From an uncultured Peptostreptococcaceae bacterium (GTDB taxonomy: Bacteria > Bacillota > Clostridia > Peptostreptococcales > Anaerovoracaceae): a stretch of 29,930 nucleotides of DNA. Position 1 is the stretch's first letter; the number at the start of each line of letters is the position of its first letter. Where the stretch lies: contig CAJOQI010000117.1 in NCBI GenBank assembly GCA_905236895.1, forward strand, positions 1 to 29,930, in the 5' to 3' direction. Below, one piece after another: positions 5,329 through 28,986 of the stretch. Both the position numbers and the translations under genes were made by a program. The notes beneath the pieces are model-generated. The model was not told where the DNA came from. It searched no databases and worked only from the letters and a program-made list of their open reading frames with translations.

Positions 5329-5771
5329 AATTTGTAATTCAAAGAGTAAGTGAAGCTTCCGTAAAGGTGGATGGAGTAACAACAGGAGAAATAGGAAAGG
5401 GCTTTCTTGTTCTAATCGGCGTATCCAATGATGATACCAAGGAAATTGCCGATAAGTTGGTAGCAAAGCTCCTTAAACTTAGAATCTTCCAGGATGAAAA
5501 CGGCAAAACCAATTTGGACCTTGCTTCCGTTGGAGGGGAACTGCTTTTGGTTTCTCAGTTCACTCTCTATGCGGATTGCAAGCATGGCAATAGACCCAGC
5601 TTTACCAATGCGGGAAACCCCGTTTTGGCGGAAGAACTATACGAATACATAATCGAAGCCTGCAGAGCAGGTGGGGCTAAGGTTGAAACCGGCGTTTTCG
5701 GAGGGGATATGAAGGTGAGCCTCATAAACGACGGGCCATTCACTATAATATTGGATTCGGAGGAACTTTAA
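5325..5771 (+). CDS. dtd: D-aminoacyl-tRNA deacylase
   Basis: A 148-residue protein of standard Dtd length that hydrolyses D-amino acids (and glycine) mischarged onto tRNA. The N-terminal [17 protein letters not shown], the [17 protein letters not shown] motif and the C-terminal [11 protein letters not shown] are visible; the last carries the Gly-Pro pair that enforces D-chirality, with Phe where Val is common. It starts within the racemase stop codon and its own stop overlaps the next start by one base (TAATG). It is therefore translationally tied to a D-Asp/D-Glu producer upstream and a CARF nuclease downstream. Confidence 0.96.
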
Positions 5772-6916
5772 TGATTCAGTTGGATTTTTTCGATAAGGAC
5801 ATAGTAAGCACCTTGCTTCCGATTAACACCATGAAGCCCGACAAGGTTTTCTTCCTGGTGGACAAGAGAATAATCACGGGGAAGGAGGTCCGCCAGTTGA
5901 GCGAAGCAATAGAGAATATGCTCCCGGAGATTGACCTGGAGTTCAAACCTGTTGACGTGGATGACTTTGAAGACATCTATAGAGAAGCGGTGGACGTAAT
6001 CAAGAAAAACAACGGCGAAGAAATCTATGTGGATTTGACAGGCGGGACTGAGCTTATGTCTGCCTGCGGTTTTAGAGCAGCGCTTCAATATGATGTGATT
6101 CCAATTCATGTGGATGTTAGACGAGAGAAGGTCTTCAATGTTTCCACGGGCGAAATCATAAAACCTACGGAACATATTTCCTTGGAAGACTGCCTTACCG
6201 CTGTTGGAGCAAAGCGTCTAAAGGACTCCCACGATATTCCCGCAGAAGAAGAATTCGACAGAATCTTGGCCATGGGAGAAGTTCTCTTCCACAATGTAAA
6301 CGCCTGGCAAAAACTCTATCAGCATCTGGCCAATTCCGTTGGAGGGAAGAATCAGATGACCGCAAGGATCAAACTGGATAATTTCGGCAGAGATTCCAAG
6401 GGAGTAAAGAGGCTTTGCGAGGCCTTTGCCGAATACGGATTCTGGAAAGAAGTAGAAGAGGGCCAGTATGAATTCGCTGCGTCAAAGTATAAAAGATATA
6501 TGACCACCTTCGGCACTTGGTTGGAACTCTATATCTACATCAAAGCGAAGGAAGTCTTTGGTGATGCGGAGCTTGGGGTTGTAATCGATTGGTATGATGC
6601 GGACAACGTGGATACCCAAGACAATGAGATTGATGTGCTGGTAATGAAGAAGTCGGTGCCAATCTTCATCTCTTGTAAAATGAGAAAGCCCGTATCCTCG
6701 GATCTCTACGAGGTGGGCTATTTGGCAGAGAGGTTGGGAGGAGGCAAGGCAAAGGCGCTTCTTGCCACCACTTTCCCGGTGAAGGAATTGGGAACAAGCC
6801 CCAAGAGAATGTATCAAAGAATGAAGAAACTGAAAATCGGCTTAATAGAAACCGATAGCTTTAAGGATACGTCTGCTGCAGAGGTATTTAACCACGCGCT
6901 GCAGATGACGGAATAA
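5771..6916 (+). CDS. CARF-domain PD-(D/E)XK nuclease, Card1/Can2-like (DUF1887)
   Basis: A 381-residue protein with the layout of DUF1887/Card1: an N-terminal CARF domain (about 1-140), a linker/winged-helix-like middle and a C-terminal restriction-like nuclease. The CARF signature is FFLVDKR (27-33) and VDLTGGTELM (87-96). The nuclease core shows Glu252 in GTWLELY, Asp288 in NEIDVLV and Lys303 in FISCK. The (D/E)xK acidic residue is Ser301 here. Characterised relatives are switched on by cyclic oligoadenylates from type III CRISPR and cut DNA and/or RNA. No CRISPR array, cas10 or other cas gene is in this window. GGAGG lies just before the ATG, which overlaps the dtd stop. Ligand and target are unknown. 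Confidence 0.85.
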   Translation: MIQLDFFDKDIVSTLLPINTMKPDKVFFLVDKRIITGKEVRQLSEAIENMLPEIDLEFKPVDVDDFEDIYREAVDVIKKNNGEEIYVDLTGGTELMSACGFRAALQYDVIPIHVDVRREKVFNVSTGEIIKPTEHISLEDCLTAVGAKRLKDSHDIPAEEEFDRILAMGEVLFHNVNAWQKLYQHLANSVGGKNQMTARIKLDNFGRDSKGVKRLCEAFAEYGFWKEVEEGQYEFAASKYKRYMTTFGTWLELYIYIKAKEVFGDAELGVVIDWYDADNVDTQDNEIDVLVMKKSVPIFISCKMRKPVSSDLYEVGYLAERLGGGKAKALLATTFPVKELGTSPKRMYQRMKKLKIGLIETDSFKDTSAAEVFNHALQMTE

Positions 6917-9989: not shown

Positions 9990-11075
9990 ATGGGAAAGAT
10001 ATATCCGCAGCTTGTGGTAAGGCCTAATAACATGAAAAGCAATATGGAAAAGATCATAGCCATAGCCCGTGAAGGGGGTATGGAGGTAACGGGAGTAGGT
10101 AAAGGCTTTCGTTGTATTCCTGAGTGTTGCCGTGCCATGGTTGATGCAGGCTGTATCAACATAGGCGGAGCCAGAGTTGGTGATCTTAAAAAACTGAAGG
10201 AAAGATACCCCGAAATAGAAACTCTCCTTACCAGAATCCCCATGATTTCCGAAGCGGATGAGGTCGTGGCTTGGGCGGATATTTCTTTGGTTTCCGAAGA
10301 AGAGACTTTGGAGGCTCTTAACAAAGCAGCCCTAAACCAAGGTAAGACTCATAAAGTCATTCTTATGAAGGACATAGGCGACAGAAGAGAGGGCTTCTTC
10401 CAAAAAGAAAAGATGGTGGAAACAGGGGTTAAAGTAGAGAGTGAAATGAAAGGCCTTCGCCTTCACGGGGTTGGAACCAATTTTGGCTGCTACGGTTCCG
10501 TCTGTCCCACTTGGGATAAGCTTACCGAATTAGTGGAATGCGCAGAGGCTATAGAGGAGAGAATCGGAAGAAAACTGGACATCATTTCCAGCGGCGGAAC
10601 CCAAACCCTTACTCTGGTTCCAACAAAGGAAATCCCCGATAGAGTTAACAATATTAGAGTGGGAATTGCATCCATAACAAAGGCAGCATATACCTGGCAT
10701 GATGACATAGAGGGAAGGCTTGATACATTTAGGCTTAGAGCGGAAATCGTGGAGTTAAAGGATAAACCCACCATGCCCTACGGAAAACTGGGAGCCGCAG
10801 CCTTAAACGAAACAAGAAAATACGAAGACCTGGGGATTAGAAAAAGAGCCATTGTTGCCATCGGTCGCCAAGACATTGGCGAGGACAAGGATTCAATAAT
10901 TCCCGTGGATGAGAATATAAGAATCTGGGGATCCAGCTCCGACCATACTATTCTGGATTTGGAAAACTGCGACAAAGAATATAAATTGGGTGACTATGTG
11001 GAGTTTAATATCAACTACGTGGCCTGCATGCACCTAACCATGTCTGCAGATGTAAACATCCTAATAGAAGAATAG
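9990..11075 (+). CDS. Ornithine/alanine-racemase-like PLP enzyme
   Basis: A 361-residue fold-type III PLP protein. The PLP-binding lysine is Lys38 in EVTGVGKGF, the form seen in ornithine-racemase-like proteins rather than the VVKADAYG of housekeeping alanine racemase. Other matching blocks are INIGGARVGDLKKL, GTNFGCYG and DIISSGGTQTL. Members interconvert L- and D-amino acids, for example L- and D-ornithine in clostridial ornithine fermentation. It lies directly after hflX, and its stop codon lies at the foot of a terminator stem. No other ornithine-pathway gene is nearby, so the substrate is open; D-ornithine would be relevant to the cell-wall idea developed for 22770-28336. Confidence 0.78.
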   Translation: MGKIYPQLVVRPNNMKSNMEKIIAIAREGGMEVTGVGKGFRCIPECCRAMVDAGCINIGGARVGDLKKLKERYPEIETLLTRIPMISEADEVVAWADISLVSEEETLEALNKAALNQGKTHKVILMKDIGDRREGFFQKEKMVETGVKVESEMKGLRLHGVGTNFGCYGSVCPTWDKLTELVECAEAIEERIGRKLDIISSGGTQTLTLVPTKEIPDRVNNIRVGIASITKAAYTWHDDIEGRLDTFRLRAEIVELKDKPTMPYGKLGAAALNETRKYEDLGIRKRAIVAIGRQDIGEDKDSIIPVDENIRIWGSSSDHTILDLENCDKEYKLGDYVEFNINYVACMHLTMSADVNILIEE

Positions 11076-16282: not shown

Positions 16283-16747
16283 ATGGCTATGAATGATATA
16301 CACAGTTTATCGCATTCAAAGTGGAACTGCAAATATCATATAGTCTTTGCACCAAAGTATCGACGAAAAGTATTTTATCAACAAAAGAGAATAGCGATAG
16401 GAAAAATACTTAGGCAGCTATGTGAATGGAAGGGCGTGAATCTGCTGGAAGCAGAGGCATGCCCGGATCATATCCACATATTGGTCGAGATACCACCAAA
16501 GATAGCAGTGTCGTCATTTATGGGATACCTAAAAGGTAAGAGCAGCACAATGCTATACGAACAATTTGGCGAACTAAAATACAAATATCGAAGCAGAGAA
16601 TTTTGGTGCAAAGGATATTATGTTGATACGGTAGGGAAGAATGAAAGAAGAATAGCAGAGTATATTCAAAAACAGCTTGAGGAAGACCAACTTGGCGAAC
16701 AATTAACGATGAGCGAAGTTGGCCCATTCAAGACAAAGAAAAAGTAA
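16283..16747 (+). CDS. tnpA: IS200/IS605 Y1 transposase
   Basis: A 154-residue HUH-type single-strand transposase, full length for the family. The metal-binding HUH pair is His63-Ile-His65 in DHIHILVEI, and the nucleophile is Tyr127 in AEYIQKQ, with Gln131 in the usual place. FWCKGYYVDTVG precedes it. AAGGAGG lies about 6 bp before the ATG. All catalytic residues are present, so the protein looks functional. Its product would excise the element as single-stranded DNA through the end hairpins. Confidence 0.95.
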   Translation: MAMNDIHSLSHSKWNCKYHIVFAPKYRRKVFYQQKRIAIGKILRQLCEWKGVNLLEAEACPDHIHILVEIPPKIAVSSFMGYLKGKSSTMLYEQFGELKYKYRSREFWCKGYYVDTVGKNERRIAEYIQKQLEEDQLGEQLTMSEVGPFKTKKK

Positions 16748-16859: not shown

Positions 16860-16935
16860 TGGTGGAGTGTAAGAGGATCGAACTCTCGACCTCCAGATTG
16901 CGAACCTGGCGCTCTCCCAGCTGAGCTAACACCCC
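16860..16935 (-). tRNA. tRNA-Ala, anticodon CGC
   Basis: A 76-nt cloverleaf including an encoded CCA. Acceptor GGGGTGT pairs with ACACTCC and contains the G3:U70 pair that marks alanine tRNAs. D arm GCTC/GAGC, anticodon arm CCAGG-TTCGCAA-TCTGG giving anticodon CGC (codon GCG), T arm GAGAG-TTCGATC-CTCTT. The discriminator base is A. Confidence 0.95.
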
Positions 16936-22170: not shown

Positions 22171-22789
22171 GAAAATGACCAAATCCGCTCTTGAATCCCT
22201 GATGTTCATTTGGGGAGAGCCTTTGGAAGCAAAGGATGCAGCCGAGGCCTGCGGAATAACCAAAGAAGAAGCCATGGAATGCTTCCTGGAGCTCCAGCAG
22301 GAATACGACCAGGAGGGAAGGGGCCTGCTTATTCGCAGAATCAACAATAGCTTTCAATATGCCACCAGAGCTGAGAACGCTGACTATATCGAAAAGCTTT
22401 GCACTCCGGTTAAGACCCGCCGTCTATCTCAGGCAGCCCTTGAGGTGCTGGCAATCGTGGCGTATAAGCAGCCTGTAACAAAGTCCGAAATAGATTCCAT
22501 CCGCGGAATTAAATGCGATAGGGTAATCGAAGGCCTTGCGGCAAAGGATCTGGTATGTGAAAAAGGCCGCTCCGAGGGAATCGGCCGTCCAATTCTCTAT
22601 GGAACCACGGAAACCTTCTTGAAGCAGTTCGGTTTCACCTCTCTCAAGGAACTTCCGGAAATCGAAGACCTTGAAAGCGTGCTTCATATGGATGATCAAG
22701 ATGTGGAACGTATGGACATGCAGATTTCCATTGAGGAGATGGAGCATGTAATAGAAGAGGAAAACGATATTAACCGTTATGATCCATGA
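22160..22789 (+). CDS. scpB: Segregation and condensation protein B
   Basis: A 209-residue partner of ScpA in the SMC condensin complex, built of two winged-helix domains. Visible blocks are LESLMFIWGEPL, the conserved RRLSQAALEVLAIVAYKQPVTK core and IGRPILYGTTETFLKQFGF. The C-terminal ~35 residues are acidic, as is usual. It starts inside scpA. Its last 20 bases overlap the 3' end of the convergent gatD-like gene, so there is no room for a separate terminator between them. Confidence 0.96.
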   Translation: MFNKKMTKSALESLMFIWGEPLEAKDAAEACGITKEEAMECFLELQQEYDQEGRGLLIRRINNSFQYATRAENADYIEKLCTPVKTRRLSQAALEVLAIVAYKQPVTKSEIDSIRGIKCDRVIEGLAAKDLVCEKGRSEGIGRPILYGTTETFLKQFGFTSLKELPEIEDLESVLHMDDQDVERMDMQISIEEMEHVIEEENDINRYDP

Positions 22790-23492
22790 TGAATCGTGCG
22801 TCGGGCTTATGAAAGTATTCCATTCTTTTCTGATAGGCTTTCATAACCGGCTCTTCAAAATTCATTTGATCTATTCCAAGCAGTCCAAGCAGATATTTGG
22901 TAAAAAGAGGATTCATTATAAGAAATGGCCCCAATAGGTAGGTGGCAAAAAAGTTCTTGTAATGGATCCCTTCTATTTTAGAGTCGGTAGAGTCTATGTC
23001 GCTGCCGCTGCCGTCGGTAACCTGAATAAAGGGTTGCTCAATATTGTGGCATTTTGAAAACTGATTGCGGTGGCCGATAATTTCTATGTCATTAAACCAA
23101 CCCTTAACCCAAGATGCGTATTTAATGGTAAAGTCTTTTTCCACATAATAATTGAAAAGCCCAAGTCCTTCGGTCTTTTGGCCATTTTCAAGAATATAGG
23201 AGCCAAACAATTCAAGGGCATTTCCCGTAAGAAGGAAGATGGTTTCGTTTTCTATCATTTCCGCAAGACGGTCTTTGTACTTTTTCAATTCTTCCAGAAT
23301 CACATAGGTCTTTCCGTCTCTGATATTGGTCATATAGATCATATCGATCTTATGGTTGAGAAAATGAGGCTCCCGGTGAAGGGAAGTATAGACTACCTCT
23401 ATCTCCTCCGAAGCTTTGTCCAGGAACATGGCGTTATACACTTCTCCATACATATTTCCGAATTCGCTGTATAAGACTTCTATTGTTTTCAT
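22770..23492 (-). CDS. gatD: GatD-like amidotransferase subunit lacking glutaminase residues
   Basis: A 240-residue CobB/CobQ-type glutamine amidotransferase homologue paired with a MurT-like ligase. In S. aureus, GatD releases ammonia from glutamine so that MurT can amidate D-Glu of lipid II. The fold matches through TEGLGLFNYY and IHYKNFFATYLLGPF. However, the nucleophile motif (CGGYQxLG in active members) reads GNALELFG, with Gly90 for Cys, and the HGP histidine is Leu187 (LLGPF). The only Cys is Cys148, away from the site. It is therefore predicted to be inactive as a glutaminase. It overlaps murT by 4 bp and is co-transcribed with it. Confidence 0.85.
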   Translation of the reverse strand: MKTIEVLYSEFGNMYGEVYNAMFLDKASEEIEVVYTSLHREPHFLNHKIDMIYMTNIRDGKTYVILEELKKYKDRLAEMIENETIFLLTGNALELFGSYILENGQKTEGLGLFNYYVEKDFTIKYASWVKGWFNDIEIIGHRNQFSKCHNIEQPFIQVTDGSGSDIDSTDSKIEGIHYKNFFATYLLGPFLIMNPLFTKYLLGLLGIDQMNFEEPVMKAYQKRMEYFHKPDARFIMDHNG

Positions 23493-24829
23493 CTCTCTCC
23501 GTCCAATCTCTTCATGGTGCTGTTTGCAACATCAATACCCCATCTGTAGAAATCGATATCGCATATTAGATAAATATCGCTGTCGTCCAGACTTAAGTAT
23601 TTATAAGCTTCTTTATAGTCTTCGCAGATTATCAGCTTGCTTTCATCTACGCCGGCCAGCAGTAGTCTAACCATATAGTCCATGGTATTGTCGCCGGTTA
23701 TGATTATCTTTCTTACGGAATCGTCAGCCAATAGTTCAAAATCGTTATCGTAAAGCCAAGTCATTGTGGCGTGGGAGCTGGCACTGATTTCCGCATCCAT
23801 TATGAGAACCAATTCCTTGGGATTCTTGTTCTTCATAATGCTTTCGAAAATAATGGAAGGAGCGGTACCGTTCTGGCCCTTGCCGCATTTCCTGTAGATG
23901 TCTATACCCTTATAGGAATCAAAGCCCTCCCTGGTTTCGGGAATGGAAACGGTTTTAAGGAGTTCGTCGATTTTTTTCGGGGAATAATCCATCTCCCTGA
24001 AGAGGGCTATGGTCATTATCTCGTTATAGAGATTGAATATATCGTCGGAAATGATGTGATAGGATTCGCCGTTTAGGATGAGCTTGTCGCCCTGAACATC
24101 CTCCCAGATGTATTTGGAGGGATAGTTGGTGAAACCGCAATTGGGGCAGGTGTATTTACCCACATGCCTATAGTGCCTGTATTCGTATTCGATAGGTGCA
24201 TTGCACTCCGGGCAGGTAAGGAATTCGTTGGAGAAGCCTGCATGAGCACTTTCTTGAAAAATCCTATCGGTGCCAACAAAGATTCTCTTATTGTTCCGAC
24301 CAAGTCTTGAAGATATGGGATCGTTGGAATGGAGCAGAAGAGTGGTATTCCTGTCCGTGTCAATGGCCTGATCCATTATTTCAAATATATAGTCAGGGTA
24401 GGCGTTTCTGCGAATGGAGTCTCGACAAATATTGGTGATGAGAAGATACTGTGGATCAAAGGCGGAAAGACTTCTTTCCAATACCAACTCATCCGCCTCC
24501 AAAACGCAGGCGTCCACCTTGGGTTTATTGAAAATCGTTACGCAGTCCAATAGTGTCTTGATATGTCCCGCCAGCATATTGGCACCCCAATAGGAATATT
24601 CGGTCTTGTGACCGCTGTTCATAAGTATATGGGCAACCATATGGGTGGTGGTGGACTTACCGTTGGTTCCGGTAACCATAACTGTGGTCTTGGGCTTGGC
24701 GATTTTGCTTAAGAAATCCGGGCAAATCTTATAGGCCAGAACTCCGATTCTGTCGTTCTTGTGCTTGGCGAAACGCTCAGAGAAAAAAACATATATTTTT
24801 GCGAAAAATAATACCAACCAAAATCTCAT
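23489..24829 (-). CDS. murT: MurT-like Mur ligase (DUF1727)
   Basis: A 446-residue ATP-dependent ligase of the Mur family. A hydrophobic N-terminus (about 1-16) may touch the membrane. The P-loop GTNGKSTT is at 54-61, followed by WGANMLAGHIKTLL and LEADELVLE. The MurT-specific zinc ribbon is Cys206-x2-Cys209 and Cys228-x2-Cys231. The C-terminal DUF1727 domain has WLYDNDFE, matching the (D)xSWIWDxDFE region of MurT, but the leading Asp, reported to complete the GatD triad, aligns with Thr355. Known MurT/GatD converts D-Glu of lipid II to D-isoglutamine. Here the associated glutaminase looks dead, so the amine donor may differ. It is divergent from the SHMT-like/sbnA/sbnB operon. Confidence 0.88.
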   Translation of the reverse strand: MRFWLVLFFAKIYVFFSERFAKHKNDRIGVLAYKICPDFLSKIAKPKTTVMVTGTNGKSTTTHMVAHILMNSGHKTEYSYWGANMLAGHIKTLLDCVTIFNKPKVDACVLEADELVLERSLSAFDPQYLLITNICRDSIRRNAYPDYIFEIMDQAIDTDRNTTLLLHSNDPISSRLGRNNKRIFVGTDRIFQESAHAGFSNEFLTCPECNAPIEYEYRHYRHVGKYTCPNCGFTNYPSKYIWEDVQGDKLILNGESYHIISDDIFNLYNEIMTIALFREMDYSPKKIDELLKTVSIPETREGFDSYKGIDIYRKCGKGQNGTAPSIIFESIMKNKNPKELVLIMDAEISASSHATMTWLYDNDFELLADDSVRKIIITGDNTMDYMVRLLLAGVDESKLIICEDYKEAYKYLSLDDSDIYLICDIDFYRWGIDVANSTMKRLDGER

Positions 24830-24895
24830 TTTATATCCTATATCCCTTTTTTTTCAGTGAATTTTCATACCATATACTACGATAATTCCGTTGTA

Positions 24896-24924
24896 TTGAC
24901 AAGAGAAAAGTTATTCTGTAGAAT
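24896..24924 (+). promoter_or_regulatory. Promoter of the SHMT-like/sbnA/sbnB operon
   Basis: TTGACA (24896-24901), exactly 17 bp, TAGAAT (24919-24924), with a start expected near 24931. This excludes the in-frame ATG at 24925 as the translation start and leaves a leader of about 100 nt before 25033. No named riboswitch is evident in the leader. Confidence 0.75.
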
Positions 24925-25032
24925 ATGTGGAGATATGACAATATATTGGAATTTAGCCTGTTGCCATACAATAAGAATGGTATTTCGTCAATTGGATATG
25001 GGGATAGGTATTGTTTTTTTGAGAGTATAATA

Positions 25033-26391
25033 ATGGATGAAAAACATCGCATTTTTCGCGAGGGAGATCTGAAAACAGTCGACCCGCTTCTTTACGAAAT
25101 AATGAAAGGAGAAGGGGAGAGACAGAAGGAAAAACTCCTCCTCAATGCGGCTACCAGCATCACTCCTCGCAGCATCCTGGAAATCCAGGGATCCATATTG
25201 GACAATATAGATGCTGAAGGGTATATCCCTCGGTATATAGCGGATCAAAGCCTGGAGGAGCTGAAGGATATAGACAATTCCTTGGCTCTATACAAAGAAT
25301 ACAGAGATGACAGATTCAACAAATGTTGTGAATATGTCAATATAATTGAGGGGCTGGCCATAAAGAGACTGGCCAAGGCTTTTGAAAGCCGAAAGGCTCC
25401 TGCGGAAAAGATAAAAGTAAATGTACAGGTCCCCACCGGGGCTCTGGCAAATGAAATAGTCTACGAAGCTTTGCTTAATGGCGGGGATATTATCCTTTCC
25501 CTCGGAACTCAAGAGGGAGGCCATACTACTCACGGGGATAGGGAACATATTTCATACGACAGATACAAAGTAATCAACTATCATATTGATATGAATACCG
25601 GGGCCTTTGATTTTGATGAAATCGGAGAGCTTCTGGAAAAGCATAAGCCGAGGATAATGGTGGCCGGCGCCAGTTCCTATCCTTTGTCTATCGACTGGGA
25701 AAGACTTAGGGAAGAGGTGGACCGTCATTCTCCGGAGACTTTGCTCATGGCGGATATTGCCCATACTGCCGGATTGGTGGCAGGTGGCGCATTCAACAAT
25801 CCTCTGGGAATAGCCGATATCACCACCATGGTTGGATACAAGACCTTCTGTGGACCAAGGGCTGCGGCTATTATGACCACCGGCGAAGAACTGGCAAAGA
25901 TTATCGACGAAACCGTTTTCCCCAGGATTATGGGATCGCCTTTGCTGCTGGGAATCGGCGGACTGGCCGTTGCCGGAGGCATAGCAATGACGGAAGAGTA
26001 TAAAGCCATGCAGAAGGCTATAGTGGAAAACGCCAGAACTCTTTGCAAAGAACTGGTGGAAAGAGGCCTTGATGTAGTATATGGGAAGACGGATTCTCAT
26101 ATAGTATTGCTTGACTGTGAAGGATATGGCACAGGCAGAGAGATGATGGACATCTTGGAAGACTGCAATATCCTTGTAAATAGTGTTACGGTTCCGTCCA
26201 AGGGGGAATATCACGACGGACTGAGACTGGGAACAACTGCGATTACCCAATTTGGAATAAGCCAAGAGGGCATCAAAGAAATTGCGGACATAATCGCTGA
26301 AGTGTTCCAAGGAAAAAGGGAAAAGAGAGAAGTTAATTACGCGGAATTGAAGGAGAGAGTAAGCCGTGTAATGGAGAGGGAGATGGAATGA
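25033..26391 (+). CDS. SHMT-fold PLP enzyme, probably not folate-dependent
   Basis: A 452-residue fold-type I PLP enzyme of the serine hydroxymethyltransferase superfamily. Lys270 (VGYKTFCGPR) is the Schiff-base lysine, Asp241 and His244 (DIAHTAGLVAGG) bind PLP, and Arg398 (GLRLGT) fits the substrate carboxylate. Housekeeping features are changed: LIASENYTS is LNAATSITP, losing the catalytic Glu (Thr41 aligns), and AHGGHLTHG is QEGGHTTHG, losing the ring-stacking His. The THK motif is GYK. Such enzymes can act as aldolases, transaldolases or alpha-methyltransferases. The start is 25033 because the promoter overlaps the earlier ATG. It overlaps sbnA by 4 bp. Product unknown. Confidence 0.85.
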   Translation: MDEKHRIFREGDLKTVDPLLYEIMKGEGERQKEKLLLNAATSITPRSILEIQGSILDNIDAEGYIPRYIADQSLEELKDIDNSLALYKEYRDDRFNKCCEYVNIIEGLAIKRLAKAFESRKAPAEKIKVNVQVPTGALANEIVYEALLNGGDIILSLGTQEGGHTTHGDREHISYDRYKVINYHIDMNTGAFDFDEIGELLEKHKPRIMVAGASSYPLSIDWERLREEVDRHSPETLLMADIAHTAGLVAGGAFNNPLGIADITTMVGYKTFCGPRAAAIMTTGEELAKIIDETVFPRIMGSPLLLGIGGLAVAGGIAMTEEYKAMQKAIVENARTLCKELVERGLDVVYGKTDSHIVLLDCEGYGTGREMMDILEDCNILVNSVTVPSKGEYHDGLRLGTTAITQFGISQEGIKEIADIIAEVFQGKREKREVNYAELKERVSRVMEREME

Positions 26392-27350
26392 GATTATTTG
26401 ACTACATCGGAAACACCCCTTTGTACCAGGGGCATGATGAGAAAAACGACATTTATTTCAAGTTTGAGGGCATGAACAGCTTCGGCAGTTCCAAGGACAG
26501 AGCGGCTCTATACGTGCTTAACAAACTCTACAGAGAAGGAGTAATCAATAAGGAAACAACCATAATTGAGTCTTCTTCCGGGAATATGGGAATAGCCCTT
26601 GCGGCGGTTTGCAAGGATCTGGGCAATCACTTTATCTGCGTAATAGATCCTCATATCTCTGCCGTTAACGAGTTCATAATCACTTCTCTCGGAGCAGAAA
26701 CCCTTAAGGTTACCGAGGCGGATGAGAATAACAGTTATCTTAAGACCAGACTTAAGAACGTCAACAGACTTTTGGAAAAGATTCCAAACTCCTATTGGTT
26801 CAACCAATACGGCAATAGCCTTGTTTGCGAGGCATATGAATCCGTAGCGGAAGAAATGATTAGAGATGTTCCCGACGTAGAATACGTATTTATCGCCGTA
26901 AGCAGTGCGGGAACAATAGGCGGCGTATCCGCAAAGCTGAAGGAACACAATCCCAATATCAAGGTAATCGCTGTAGATGTATTGGGTTCCAAGGTCTTTG
27001 ATCCCAATGCAACCCAGAAGAGATATTTAAGCGGTATCGGATCCAGCATCAAAGCCGACAACCTGGAGCGTGCCGTAATAGATGAAGTTATGATGGTTGA
27101 CGAGAAGGATGGAGTCAAGGCTTGCTATGACCTACTTAATGACGAGTCCATCTTCGGCGGCGGATCCAGTGGCTGCGTTTACCACGCCATGCGCAAGTAT
27201 ATCGCAGACAATAATCTGGAAGGAAAGAAGATTATCGGCCTTCTGAACGACAGGGGAGACAGATATTTCAAAACCATCTATTCCAGCGAATGGGTTAAAG
27301 AGAAGTTCAATATCGACGTATATAATCTGATTTATAGTTTTGTAAAATAG
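26388..27350 (+). CDS. sbnA: SbnA-like N-(2-amino-2-carboxyethyl)-L-glutamate synthase
   Basis: A 320-residue PLP enzyme of the cysteine-synthase fold. SbnA joins O-phospho-L-serine and L-glutamate to form ACEGA, the first step to L-2,3-diaminopropionate in the staphyloferrin B pathway. Lys36 (SSKDRAA) binds PLP, IESSSGNMGIALA is the phosphate and substrate loop, and PNSYWFNQYGN, GSSAGTIGG-like and GGGSSGCVYHA segments match SbnA better than CysK. LNDRGDRYFKTIYSSEWV at the C-terminus is also SbnA-like. It is coupled to the SHMT-like gene by ATGA and followed 29 bp later by sbnB. A slightly different beta-substituted serine donor is possible given the upstream enzyme. Confidence 0.86.
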   Translation: MRLFDYIGNTPLYQGHDEKNDIYFKFEGMNSFGSSKDRAALYVLNKLYREGVINKETTIIESSSGNMGIALAAVCKDLGNHFICVIDPHISAVNEFIITSLGAETLKVTEADENNSYLKTRLKNVNRLLEKIPNSYWFNQYGNSLVCEAYESVAEEMIRDVPDVEYVFIAVSSAGTIGGVSAKLKEHNPNIKVIAVDVLGSKVFDPNATQKRYLSGIGSSIKADNLERAVIDEVMMVDEKDGVKACYDLLNDESIFGGGSSGCVYHAMRKYIADNNLEGKKIIGLLNDRGDRYFKTIYSSEWVKEKFNIDVYNLIYSFVK

Positions 27351-27379
27351 AGATTTGGATAGGAGAAAGGATTTATAAA

Positions 27380-28336
27380 ATGCTGTATGTATCTAAGAAT
27401 GAAGCTCAGCAGGTGCCCCTCGATTGGGACGTACTGCTAGACACAATAGAAAAGGCGACGGAAGTTATCGCCGCAGGTCAGAACAGTGAGCCGGAGCATC
27501 CCTTTGTTGATTTTCCGGATCCTGCCAACAGAATTATCGCTCTGCCTTCTTACGTAGGTGGGGATATCGATATTTCCGGTATCAAATGGATCGCCAGCTT
27601 CCCTGACAATATTAACCACGGACTTCCAAGAGCAAACAGCGTAACAATCCTTAATTCAACTGAGAACGGCGTTCCCTTTGCTATTTTCAATTCCACCCTT
27701 CTCAGCATCGTAAGAACAAGCTCCGTTACGGGAACCGTACTTCGTAAATTCTTCCGGTTCAGGAATGAAAAACTCAATGTGGGAATAATCGGTTTTGGCC
27801 CAATCGGACAGATGCATTACAGAATGCTGACAGAAGGATTCTCACAGTATATCAACCAGGTAAAGATTTTCGATATTCGTGAAATCGACTATCCATTTGA
27901 CGGAAGCATTCCAACAAACTTTGTTGGAACCTGGCAGGAAGCATATGAAGACGCAGATGTATTCATCAATGCAACCGTAACAAAGGAAAGATATGTGGAA
28001 GGTCAGCCCAAGGAAGGCGCTTTGCTGGCAGACATTTCCCTGAGAGACTATAAGGTTAGCATTTTCGATCATGTTAAGGATGGCATAATCGTAGATGATT
28101 GGGACCAGGTTTGCAGAAAGAATACGGACATCGAGTGGTTCCACAAAGAAAAAGGCCTCCAGAGAGACCAGGTTTATACAATCGCCGATACCATTCATGA
28201 TAAGGTTTTCGGAAAGGTGGATGCCAAGAATTTCTTCTTCAGCCCCTTCGGTACAGCAGCCTATGATATGGCAATCGGTAAATATTATTACGACAAGGTA
28301 AACGAACTGGGTCTGGGAACCAGATTGGAAGACTAA
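27380..28336 (+). CDS. sbnB: SbnB-like ACEGA dehydrogenase
   Basis: A 318-residue member of the ornithine cyclodeaminase/mu-crystallin family. SbnB uses NAD to oxidise ACEGA, releasing 2-oxoglutarate and L-2,3-diaminopropionate. The Rossmann motif is VGIIGFGPIGQMHY (about 133-146). The upstream GIKWIASFPDN block and RTSSVTGTVL are characteristic of the SbnB branch rather than of true ornithine cyclodeaminase. With SbnA it completes the two-step route to diaminopropionate. AGGAG sits about 14 bp before the ATG. No siderophore or peptide-synthetase genes are in the window. Its stop overlaps the stop of the convergent Crp/Fnr gene. Confidence 0.86.
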   Translation: MLYVSKNEAQQVPLDWDVLLDTIEKATEVIAAGQNSEPEHPFVDFPDPANRIIALPSYVGGDIDISGIKWIASFPDNINHGLPRANSVTILNSTENGVPFAIFNSTLLSIVRTSSVTGTVLRKFFRFRNEKLNVGIIGFGPIGQMHYRMLTEGFSQYINQVKIFDIREIDYPFDGSIPTNFVGTWQEAYEDADVFINATVTKERYVEGQPKEGALLADISLRDYKVSIFDHVKDGIIVDDWDQVCRKNTDIEWFHKEKGLQRDQVYTIADTIHDKVFGKVDAKNFFFSPFGTAAYDMAIGKYYYDKVNELGLGTRLED

Positions 28337-28986
28337 CTTAAGAGTTTGAACTCTCGACGGTTGCTTTCAAGCAAGCCTTCGTTACGCATAACCTTAAGCT
28401 CACGCATCATGGCGGAGCGATCAACACTTAAATACTCGGCTAATTCAGCCAGAGAAATAGGGATGGTAAAAGTTCCATCCTTTTTCTTTTCCACGGGACC
28501 ATTGCTTATATAACGCAGATAGGTAAGGAGCTTGGCCCTTATAGTTCCCTGATGAAGAATAGATAAATGTAGGGAAAGCTCCTGGGATTTCTGAGCCGCC
28601 AGAATAAAAAGATTACTGATTAGCTGGCTATGGTGCTTACAGAGATTCTCGCAGGGCTCGATTATGTGATTATAATCCACGAACATAACGCTGCAGTCAG
28701 ATGTGGCGGTTACGATATATTCAAAATTCTCCAAGGGCAGGGCAAACAATTCTCCGAAAATGTCCCCCTTACCGTAGGTTTCCATAAGAAGCATATCTCC
28801 GTCTTCCGTGAGGATATAAAGCTTTGCTGATCCTGATTCCAGAACCGCAATGCTATCGGGAACTCCCGCTTGATAGGTAAGAATGGTTTCGCCGGCCTTA
28901 AATGATTTCTGACCGGGATTAAAACAGGGACCCATAAGCCTTAAGGAAGTATCGGATATATTATCAAGTATATTTCTTTTTTCCAT
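28333..28986 (-). CDS. Crp/Fnr-family transcription regulator
   Basis: A 217-residue regulator. Residues ~20-125 form a cyclic-nucleotide-binding-type beta-roll (FKAGETILTYQAG, YGKGDIFGELFAL), followed by a dimerisation helix and a C-terminal winged HTH (ISLAELAEYLSVDRSAMMRELKVM). There is no N-terminal Cys cluster of the FNR iron-sulfur type. GAAGG precedes the ATG. It is divergent from the acyl-CoA dehydrogenase gene, in front of which a Crp-like dyad sits, and tail-to-tail with sbnB. The effector is unknown. Confidence 0.9.
   Translation of the reverse strand: MEKRNILDNISDTSLRLMGPCFNPGQKSFKAGETILTYQAGVPDSIAVLESGSAKLYILTEDGDMLLMETYGKGDIFGELFALPLENFEYIVTATSDCSVMFVDYNHIIEPCENLCKHHSQLISNLFILAAQKSQELSLHLSILHQGTIRAKLLTYLRYISNGPVEKKKDGTFTIPISLAELAEYLSVDRSAMMRELKVMRNEGLLESNRREFKLLS

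Follow-up and report, generated by a model that had tools for sequence, protein, structure and literature searches.

What does a MurT/GatD pair attach to the cell-wall precursor once its GatD subunit can no longer draw ammonia from glutamine? The question is raised by a 29,930-nucleotide stretch of contig CAJOQI010000117.1 (hereafter the window, meaning that whole stretch) from an uncultured Peptostreptococcaceae bacterium, whose genome assembly amounts to 1.37 Mb in 174 contigs and is 79% complete. The window encodes a MurT-like Mur ligase and a GatD-like subunit, and these diverge from an operon for a serine hydroxymethyltransferase-like (SHMT-like) protein followed by relatives of SbnA and SbnB (Table 1). 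An earlier note on this DNA had suggested that the second operon makes a small amine or diamino acid and that MurT/GatD ligates it to the alpha-carboxyl of D-glutamate (D-Glu), the site used by group B cross-bridges. Comparison with other genomes strengthens the part of this idea that concerns the pair itself, through a separate clade, operons with EctB, Orr and alanine-racemase-like (Alr-like) genes, a companion ATP-grasp ligase and a putative Acetobacterium woodii genome, but not the part in which SbnA, SbnB and the SHMT-like protein supply the donor.

In an ungapped alignment of the window GatD with known GatDs, Gly90 (FLLTGNALELFG) occupies the place of the nucleophilic Cys and Leu187 (TYLLGP) that of the catalytic His, and the GatD fold is kept. 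The earlier description of this protein as a dead glutaminase is borne out by these replacements and by the recurrence of the same signature in other genomes, which also argues that the loss did not arise by chance. When glutaminase-dead GatDs (dead, n = 58) were compared with those retaining the catalytic residues (live, n = 47), the Cys position was found to be Gly in 58/58 dead and Cys in 47/47 live proteins; the dead set was gathered with two search patterns, of which one includes TGNALE, so that its count of TGN is partly by construction. The His position is His in 47/47 live GatDs and mostly Ile, Leu or Thr (95%) in the dead ones, while the E-N-H motif common to all 47 live proteins is mostly K-S-Q in the dead. 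The dead proteins display a conserved set of their own, comprising E5, P42, Y53, T89-G90-N91, E94, N126, Y220 and R223, with Ala at the N126 position in the window protein. In Staphylococcus aureus, as reported in PMC6113224, amidation is abolished by GatD C94S and C94G and is lost or severely diminished with MurT D349N. Judged by its sequences, dead GatD is a class with its own conserved residues and not a decayed gene.

The same division was evident in two further collections. Some of their loci repeat earlier ones, and dead sequences made up all or most of the input to the profiles, so that the following are not population frequencies: 63 short loci taken by profile contained 53 dead, 8 live and 2 'INN'-type GatDs, with no case retaining just one of the two catalytic residues, and 22 GatD genes from the loci of relatives and one more contig of the window's own genome comprised 21 dead and 1 live. 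The INN proteins (L185 and L194) represent a third type, in which INN replaces CGG or TGN and the usual GP motif is missing. A second dead GatD is present in the window's genome (L202 5201-5719, G000:C6), where it is cut by the contig end. A GatD match of any type was found in 152/293 genomes in a search across the class Clostridia, and in 60/193 genomes of the order to which locus L050 (described below) belongs, whose members have small genomes (0.6 to 1.6 Mb).

The MurT partners follow the same divide. In a tree of 137 MurT proteins, the 47 partners of live GatDs split from the other 90 with a support of 0.975; of these 90, 88 are paired with a dead GatD and 2 with the INN type. All 90 carry a two-residue insertion at the KNP motif (KGQN for K-N-P in the window) which is found in 0/47 of the live partners. 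The window MurT, for which the predicted model has a pLDDT (predicted local distance difference test score) of 88, conserves GTNGK, E111 and cysteines 206, 209, 228 and 231, corresponding to the ATP site and the Zn-ribbon. Asp349, which completes the catalytic triad and is Asp in 47/47 live-type proteins, is replaced by Thr355, and DNAAD, reported as the stem-binding motif of live MurT, has not been conserved. Compared with the MurT/GatD lipid II isoglutaminyl synthase of S. aureus and Streptococcus pneumoniae, the window pair is without the Cys, the His and the MurT Asp349, bears an insertion in MurT, and scores only 57 and 148 bits where the NCBIfam equivalog cut-offs are 400-450 and 800 bits, far short of both. 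Dead GatD and its MurT form a discrete clade.

We lean, if modestly, towards the view that the dead-clade MurT/GatD is a ligase which joins a diamino acid to the D-Glu alpha-carboxyl, as in group B walls. By homology, MurT, which still appears able to bind ATP, would phosphorylate D-Glu of the wall precursor at its alpha-carboxyl, giving an acyl phosphate. GatD retains its fold and its partner, with a pocket rebuilt from the new conserved residues, ammonia from glutamine being no longer possible. Because this GatD cannot make ammonia and has acquired conserved pocket residues, the acyl phosphate would most probably be attacked by a diamino acid through its amino group, the diamino acid perhaps being held in the rebuilt pocket. 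This would yield the bond between the D-Glu alpha-carboxyl and a diamino acid that is found in group B (2-4) cross-bridges. By analogy with group B walls, the free amino group would then serve as the acceptor in cross-linking, and one more residue may be contributed by the companion ATP-grasp enzyme. The donor would vary by lineage: operon company in a few genomes suggests diaminobutyrate for operons that include EctB, and D-ornithine or another D-amino acid like it for those with an Orr-family (ornithine racemase-like) gene.

The main rival to a diamino-acid ligase is that MurT with a dead GatD still makes D-isoglutamine, using free ammonium and retaining GatD as a scaffold only, an arrangement that would suit the ammonia-rich gut or rumen. 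In its favour, the ligase half and the GatD fold are preserved, gut or rumen sources are named for many dead-GatD records, and most dead loci are without a diamino-acid gene beside the pair. We nevertheless consider it unlikely, because new conserved residues take the place of the pocket, because the pair accompanies EctB, Orr, Alr-like and ATP-grasp genes in operons, and because the dead type is the only one in a putative A. woodii genome, a member of a group known for a cross-bridge on that very carboxyl.

These operons were found in a survey of 80 dead-GatD loci from named records, in 78 of which MurT adjoins GatD. A protein of the Pfam family ATPgrasp_ST, an ATP-grasp of the kind that includes peptide ligases, is encoded one or two genes away in 31/80 loci, sometimes on the opposite strand, and adjoins the pair in L048 and L049, which contain the closest GatDs to that of the window (68% identical). 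The window's own genome has its ATP-grasp gene 3 bases ahead of murG, itself above its family cut-off, and this position ties the ATP-grasp gene to wall precursor synthesis. The diaminobutyrate transaminase EctB adjoins the pair in 3/80 loci, each under another group name (L050, L104 and L079), scoring 562.9, 576.1 and 553.0, respectively, against the TIGR02407 cut-off of 552.2, which the last barely exceeds; inspection by eye found no ectoine partner genes beside these three EctB genes. The L050 operon reads EctB-MurT-GatD-Orr-ATPgrasp with gaps of 8-9 bases and one overlap, and accounts for the sole Orr gene next to a pair among the 80 loci. A locus from the relatives, L037, reads MurE-MurT-GatD(dead)-Orr, and an Alr-like gene stands next to the pair in 1/80 loci (L101).

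The same neighbourhoods bear on two other possibilities. The dead-GatD MurT might act on a carboxylate other than that of the wall peptide, given that homology is the sole ground for assigning its acceptor and that the DNAAD motif has been lost. This seems very unlikely in view of the MurE neighbour in L037, the GlmM- and GlmS-like genes near the pair in L222-L224 (recognised by eye) and the ATP-grasp gene abutting murG in the window's genome. Alternatively, the donor could be a diamine, a polyamine or a single amino acid, resembling the cadaverine or putrescine on D-Glu in Negativicutes. Polyamines are reported there on the D-Glu alpha-carboxylate (PMC10628300, in the main text of which the word 'transferase' is absent), so that the bond would be the same: a non-ammonia amine on the same carboxyl, the amine of Negativicutes being a diamine. 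We judge this quite improbable for the dead-GatD pairs, since no decarboxylase was noticed beside them among the neighbours listed, as judged by eye from first residues, while a diamino-acid transaminase and racemases do adjoin pairs.

In three loci (L024, L056 and L062) one ATP-grasp gene is flanked by two dead MurT/GatD pairs, as if one operon made two ligations. Separately, the DNPR motif of MurE was tried as a marker and set aside: it occurs in 0/12 readable dead-GatD genomes and in 16/26 readable genomes without a detected pair, a comparison drawn from 41 genomes in which kinship is uncontrolled, truncated genes (G006, G012) and G042 and G045 are left out, and G025 is added from L037.

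Taxa with known walls offer a further view of the proposed diamino-acid ligase. In A. woodii and Eubacterium limosum the wall is of group B, and its D-Glu bears a D-diamino acid. The only GatD match in the putative A. woodii genome (G136) is dead, and the family to which it is assigned (label f58) includes four further genomes (G214, G231, G279 and G307) with one match each, all dead, and one (G337) with a live GatD. An Orr-family gene is present in all five dead f58 genomes and there is no Orr match in the live one. The bond predicted for the pair is the same as that of the group B cross-bridge in the scheme of Schleifer and Kandler (for example, the B2alpha type of Eubacterium), and the dead pair occurs in the putative A. 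woodii genome. Across the Clostridia, an Orr-family gene is found in 11/28 confirmed dead genomes compared with 36/265 others (Fisher p 0.0015), a count that is uncorrected for kinship, in which the dead list was compiled by hand, and the INN variants G264 and G244 stand among the others, whose GatDs are mostly of unread type.

This disregard of kinship and the mixed make-up of the 265 genomes weigh against the ligase proposal, as do several other observations. A diamino-acid or racemase gene lies beside the pair in only 4/80 dead loci, with none recognised in the remaining 76, and there is no ATP-grasp neighbour in any of 20 class-level loci (18 dead and 2 INN). Among the relatives, the single live pair (L038) has an Orr gene close by as well, such that proximity to Orr does not single out dead pairs. 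MurT position 349 is still Asp in 23/45 further dead-clade MurTs, which were added last. Microbacteriaceae are the best-known group B family. In the class of G344, counted as a whole and not by family, there is no GatD match in 151/345 genomes and the best 30 hits, which were fetched, are all live, and a plasmid of Leifsonia shinshuensis (L328 3001-5950) carries a live MurT/GatD beside an M15 peptidase gene, predicted to be VanY-like; group B in Microbacteriaceae may therefore be achieved via another enzyme. Finally, Eubacterium walls include A types as well as B2alpha, according to PMC11382707.

Which amine the window organism would use is a separate matter. There are two Orr-family genes in its genome, one in the window (Table 1), which scores 352.5 bits and is under the NCBIfam cut-off of 480, and one on another contig (G000:C96). 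Given these two genes, a D-diamino acid is at least as likely a donor here as diaminopropionate. The suggestion in the earlier note that the Orr-like gene could provide D-ornithine fares better than its proposal of an SbnA/SbnB supply, with Orr-containing operons and the co-occurrence across genomes in its favour. The second Orr gene is directly preceded by a gene for a 1194 amino acid protein with two AMP-binding stretches (L316 311-4988, G000:C96). A long protein and an Orr-family racemase, followed by greA- and lysS-like genes (by eye), recur in the same order in three genomes (L316, L319 and L321), which suggests a function.

The SbnA-like and SbnB-like proteins have SbnA and SbnB as their best family hits, yet both score under the curated cut-offs (Table 1). 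The PLP (pyridoxal phosphate)-lysine motif is kept in the SbnA-like protein, which likely catalyses the first step of L-2,3-diaminopropionate synthesis, with the second step likely performed by the SbnB-like protein. The gene order matches that of the staphyloferrin B pair; unlike in that system, the window pair is preceded by the SHMT-like gene and no open reading frame (ORF) of nonribosomal peptide synthetase (NRPS) size is found in the window. The SHMT-like protein has a subfamily score of 330.8 of 335 and, in Bacillus numbering, retains the PLP Lys, E53, H122, K226 and R357, with changes at Y51, Y60, Y61, H119 and H225. Its relatives on plasmids are distant: all 271 records are below 60% identity and the best 8 of the 271 are below 40%. 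Overall, the most likely product of the operon is diaminopropionate or one of its derivatives, and use of that product by the window MurT is no more than a possibility.

The earlier note had expected the two operons to recur together across genomes, and took a lack of such recurrence in relatives as evidence against a partnership. SHMT-like, SbnA or SbnB genes were found nearby in 0/80 dead-GatD loci and 0/20 loci of the relatives, and a close SbnB relative is present in 0/50 named dead-GatD genomes, including the two with the closest GatD; four weak SbnB matches among these 50 (no more than 84 bits) resemble generic relatives. SbnA/SbnB is thereby ruled out as a general partner of dead GatD, its role as a donor supply is unsupported beyond adjacency in one genome, and the partnership is at best peculiar to the window genome. 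It is probable that the SHMT-like/SbnA/SbnB operon is unrelated to MurT/GatD and belongs to a diaminopropionate-type pathway for a secreted small molecule, which would be compatible with MurT/GatD being a diamino-acid ligase. In addition to the absence of co-occurrence, a close SbnB relative occurs in only 3/293 Clostridia genomes, namely the window's own, G038 and G191; the latter two gave no GatD match in the class-wide search, and their SbnAB genes lie near a thioesterase-like gene (G038) or between NRPS-looking ORFs of 2432 and 1601 amino acids (G191), both by eye. Set against this are the divergent layout around a shared region of 203 bases and the lack of an NRPS-size gene, as the earlier note had also remarked: the largest complete ORF listed for the window is of 638 amino acids (end-cut ORFs being outside the list), though the contig stops at 29930 and the neighbours past the SbnB-like/Crp-type side lie beyond the sequence.

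The earlier note knew of no enzyme assigned to the cross-bridge bond at the D-Glu alpha-carboxyl, and likewise none was found in our literature search, outside which subscription papers mostly fell. The same search found no description of dead GatD, which is weak evidence of absence given that coverage, and the available passages of a MurT/GatD phylogeny (PMC11915815) mention neither dead GatD nor an enzyme for the bond. The hypothesis that MurT/GatD was converted into a diamino-acid ligase can be tested, and genomic data from far outside the window support it independently. More tentatively, glutaminase-dead MurT/GatD may be the ligase for the group B D-Glu cross-bridge in Bacillota, with GatD now an amino-acid-binding subunit, the supply gene swapped by lineage (EctB, Orr, Alr or, in the window, SbnA/SbnB) and the bridge extended by the ATP-grasp enzyme. 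Group B walls have been in use in bacterial taxonomy for decades, and if the proposal is correct the sequence of a single gene pair would allow this wall type to be predicted for many uncultured bacteria. It would also account for a large number of proteins that carry the annotation glutamine amidotransferase yet are unable to hydrolyse glutamine, provide an example of an ammonia-supplying subunit converted to another role, and bear on the wall fragments that gut bacteria show to the host.

The divergent arrangement of murT-gatD (22770-24829, minus strand) and the SHMT-like/sbnA/sbnB genes (25033-28336, plus strand) around one intergenic region was confirmed from the ORFs, those of gatD and murT overlapping by 4 bases. 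In the SHMT-like gene, homology begins only at about residue 40 of the longest ORF and Met37 lies at 25033, which makes the intergenic region plausible. A promoter-like site there matches the consensus at 11/12 positions (a consensus match only) and is oriented towards the SHMT-like gene; it is weak evidence, since a promoter scan of the DNA gave 23 such sites compared with 14.3 expected.

Table 1. Positions of the genes and of the intergenic region discussed in the text.
Feature	Positions	Strand	Remarks
Orr-family (ornithine racemase-like) gene	9990..11075	+	Candidate source of a D-diamino acid
GatD-like subunit	22770..23492	-	Glutaminase residues erased (Cys to Gly90, His to Leu187); class signature T89-G90-N91..E94
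MurT-like Mur ligase	23489..24829	-	GTNGK, E111 and Zn-ribbon cysteines kept; Thr355 is the Asp349 equivalent; 2-residue insertion
Divergent intergenic region common to both gene sets	24830..25032		Promoter-like TTGACA-17-TAGAAT at 24896-24924 (+)
SHMT-like PLP enzyme	25033..26391	+	Longest ORF starts at 24925; retains the PLP Lys, with several active-site changes
SbnA-like PLP enzyme	26388..27350	+	TIGR03945, 335 bits (cut-off 350)
SbnB-like dehydrogenase	27380..28336	+	TIGR03944, 271 bits (cut-off 327)
Crp/Fnr-family (Crp-type) regulator	28333..28986	-	Convergent with the SbnB-like gene

The tetranucleotide composition of the window is without a clear break, although the segment 22501-25500 (0.235) ranks second in deviation among 18 segments, whose values span 0.163-0.245. 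Elsewhere in the window, a CARF/Card1-like protein with Pfam HFX_2341_N and Card1_endonuc matches above cut-off is encoded between dtd and a GNAT gene (5771-6916, plus strand); no genes associated with clustered regularly interspaced short palindromic repeats (CRISPR) were recognised in the window, and arrays were not searched for. An IS200-type transposase gene (Y1_Tnp; 16283-16747, plus strand) lies near a tRNA-Ala(CGC) at 16860-16935.

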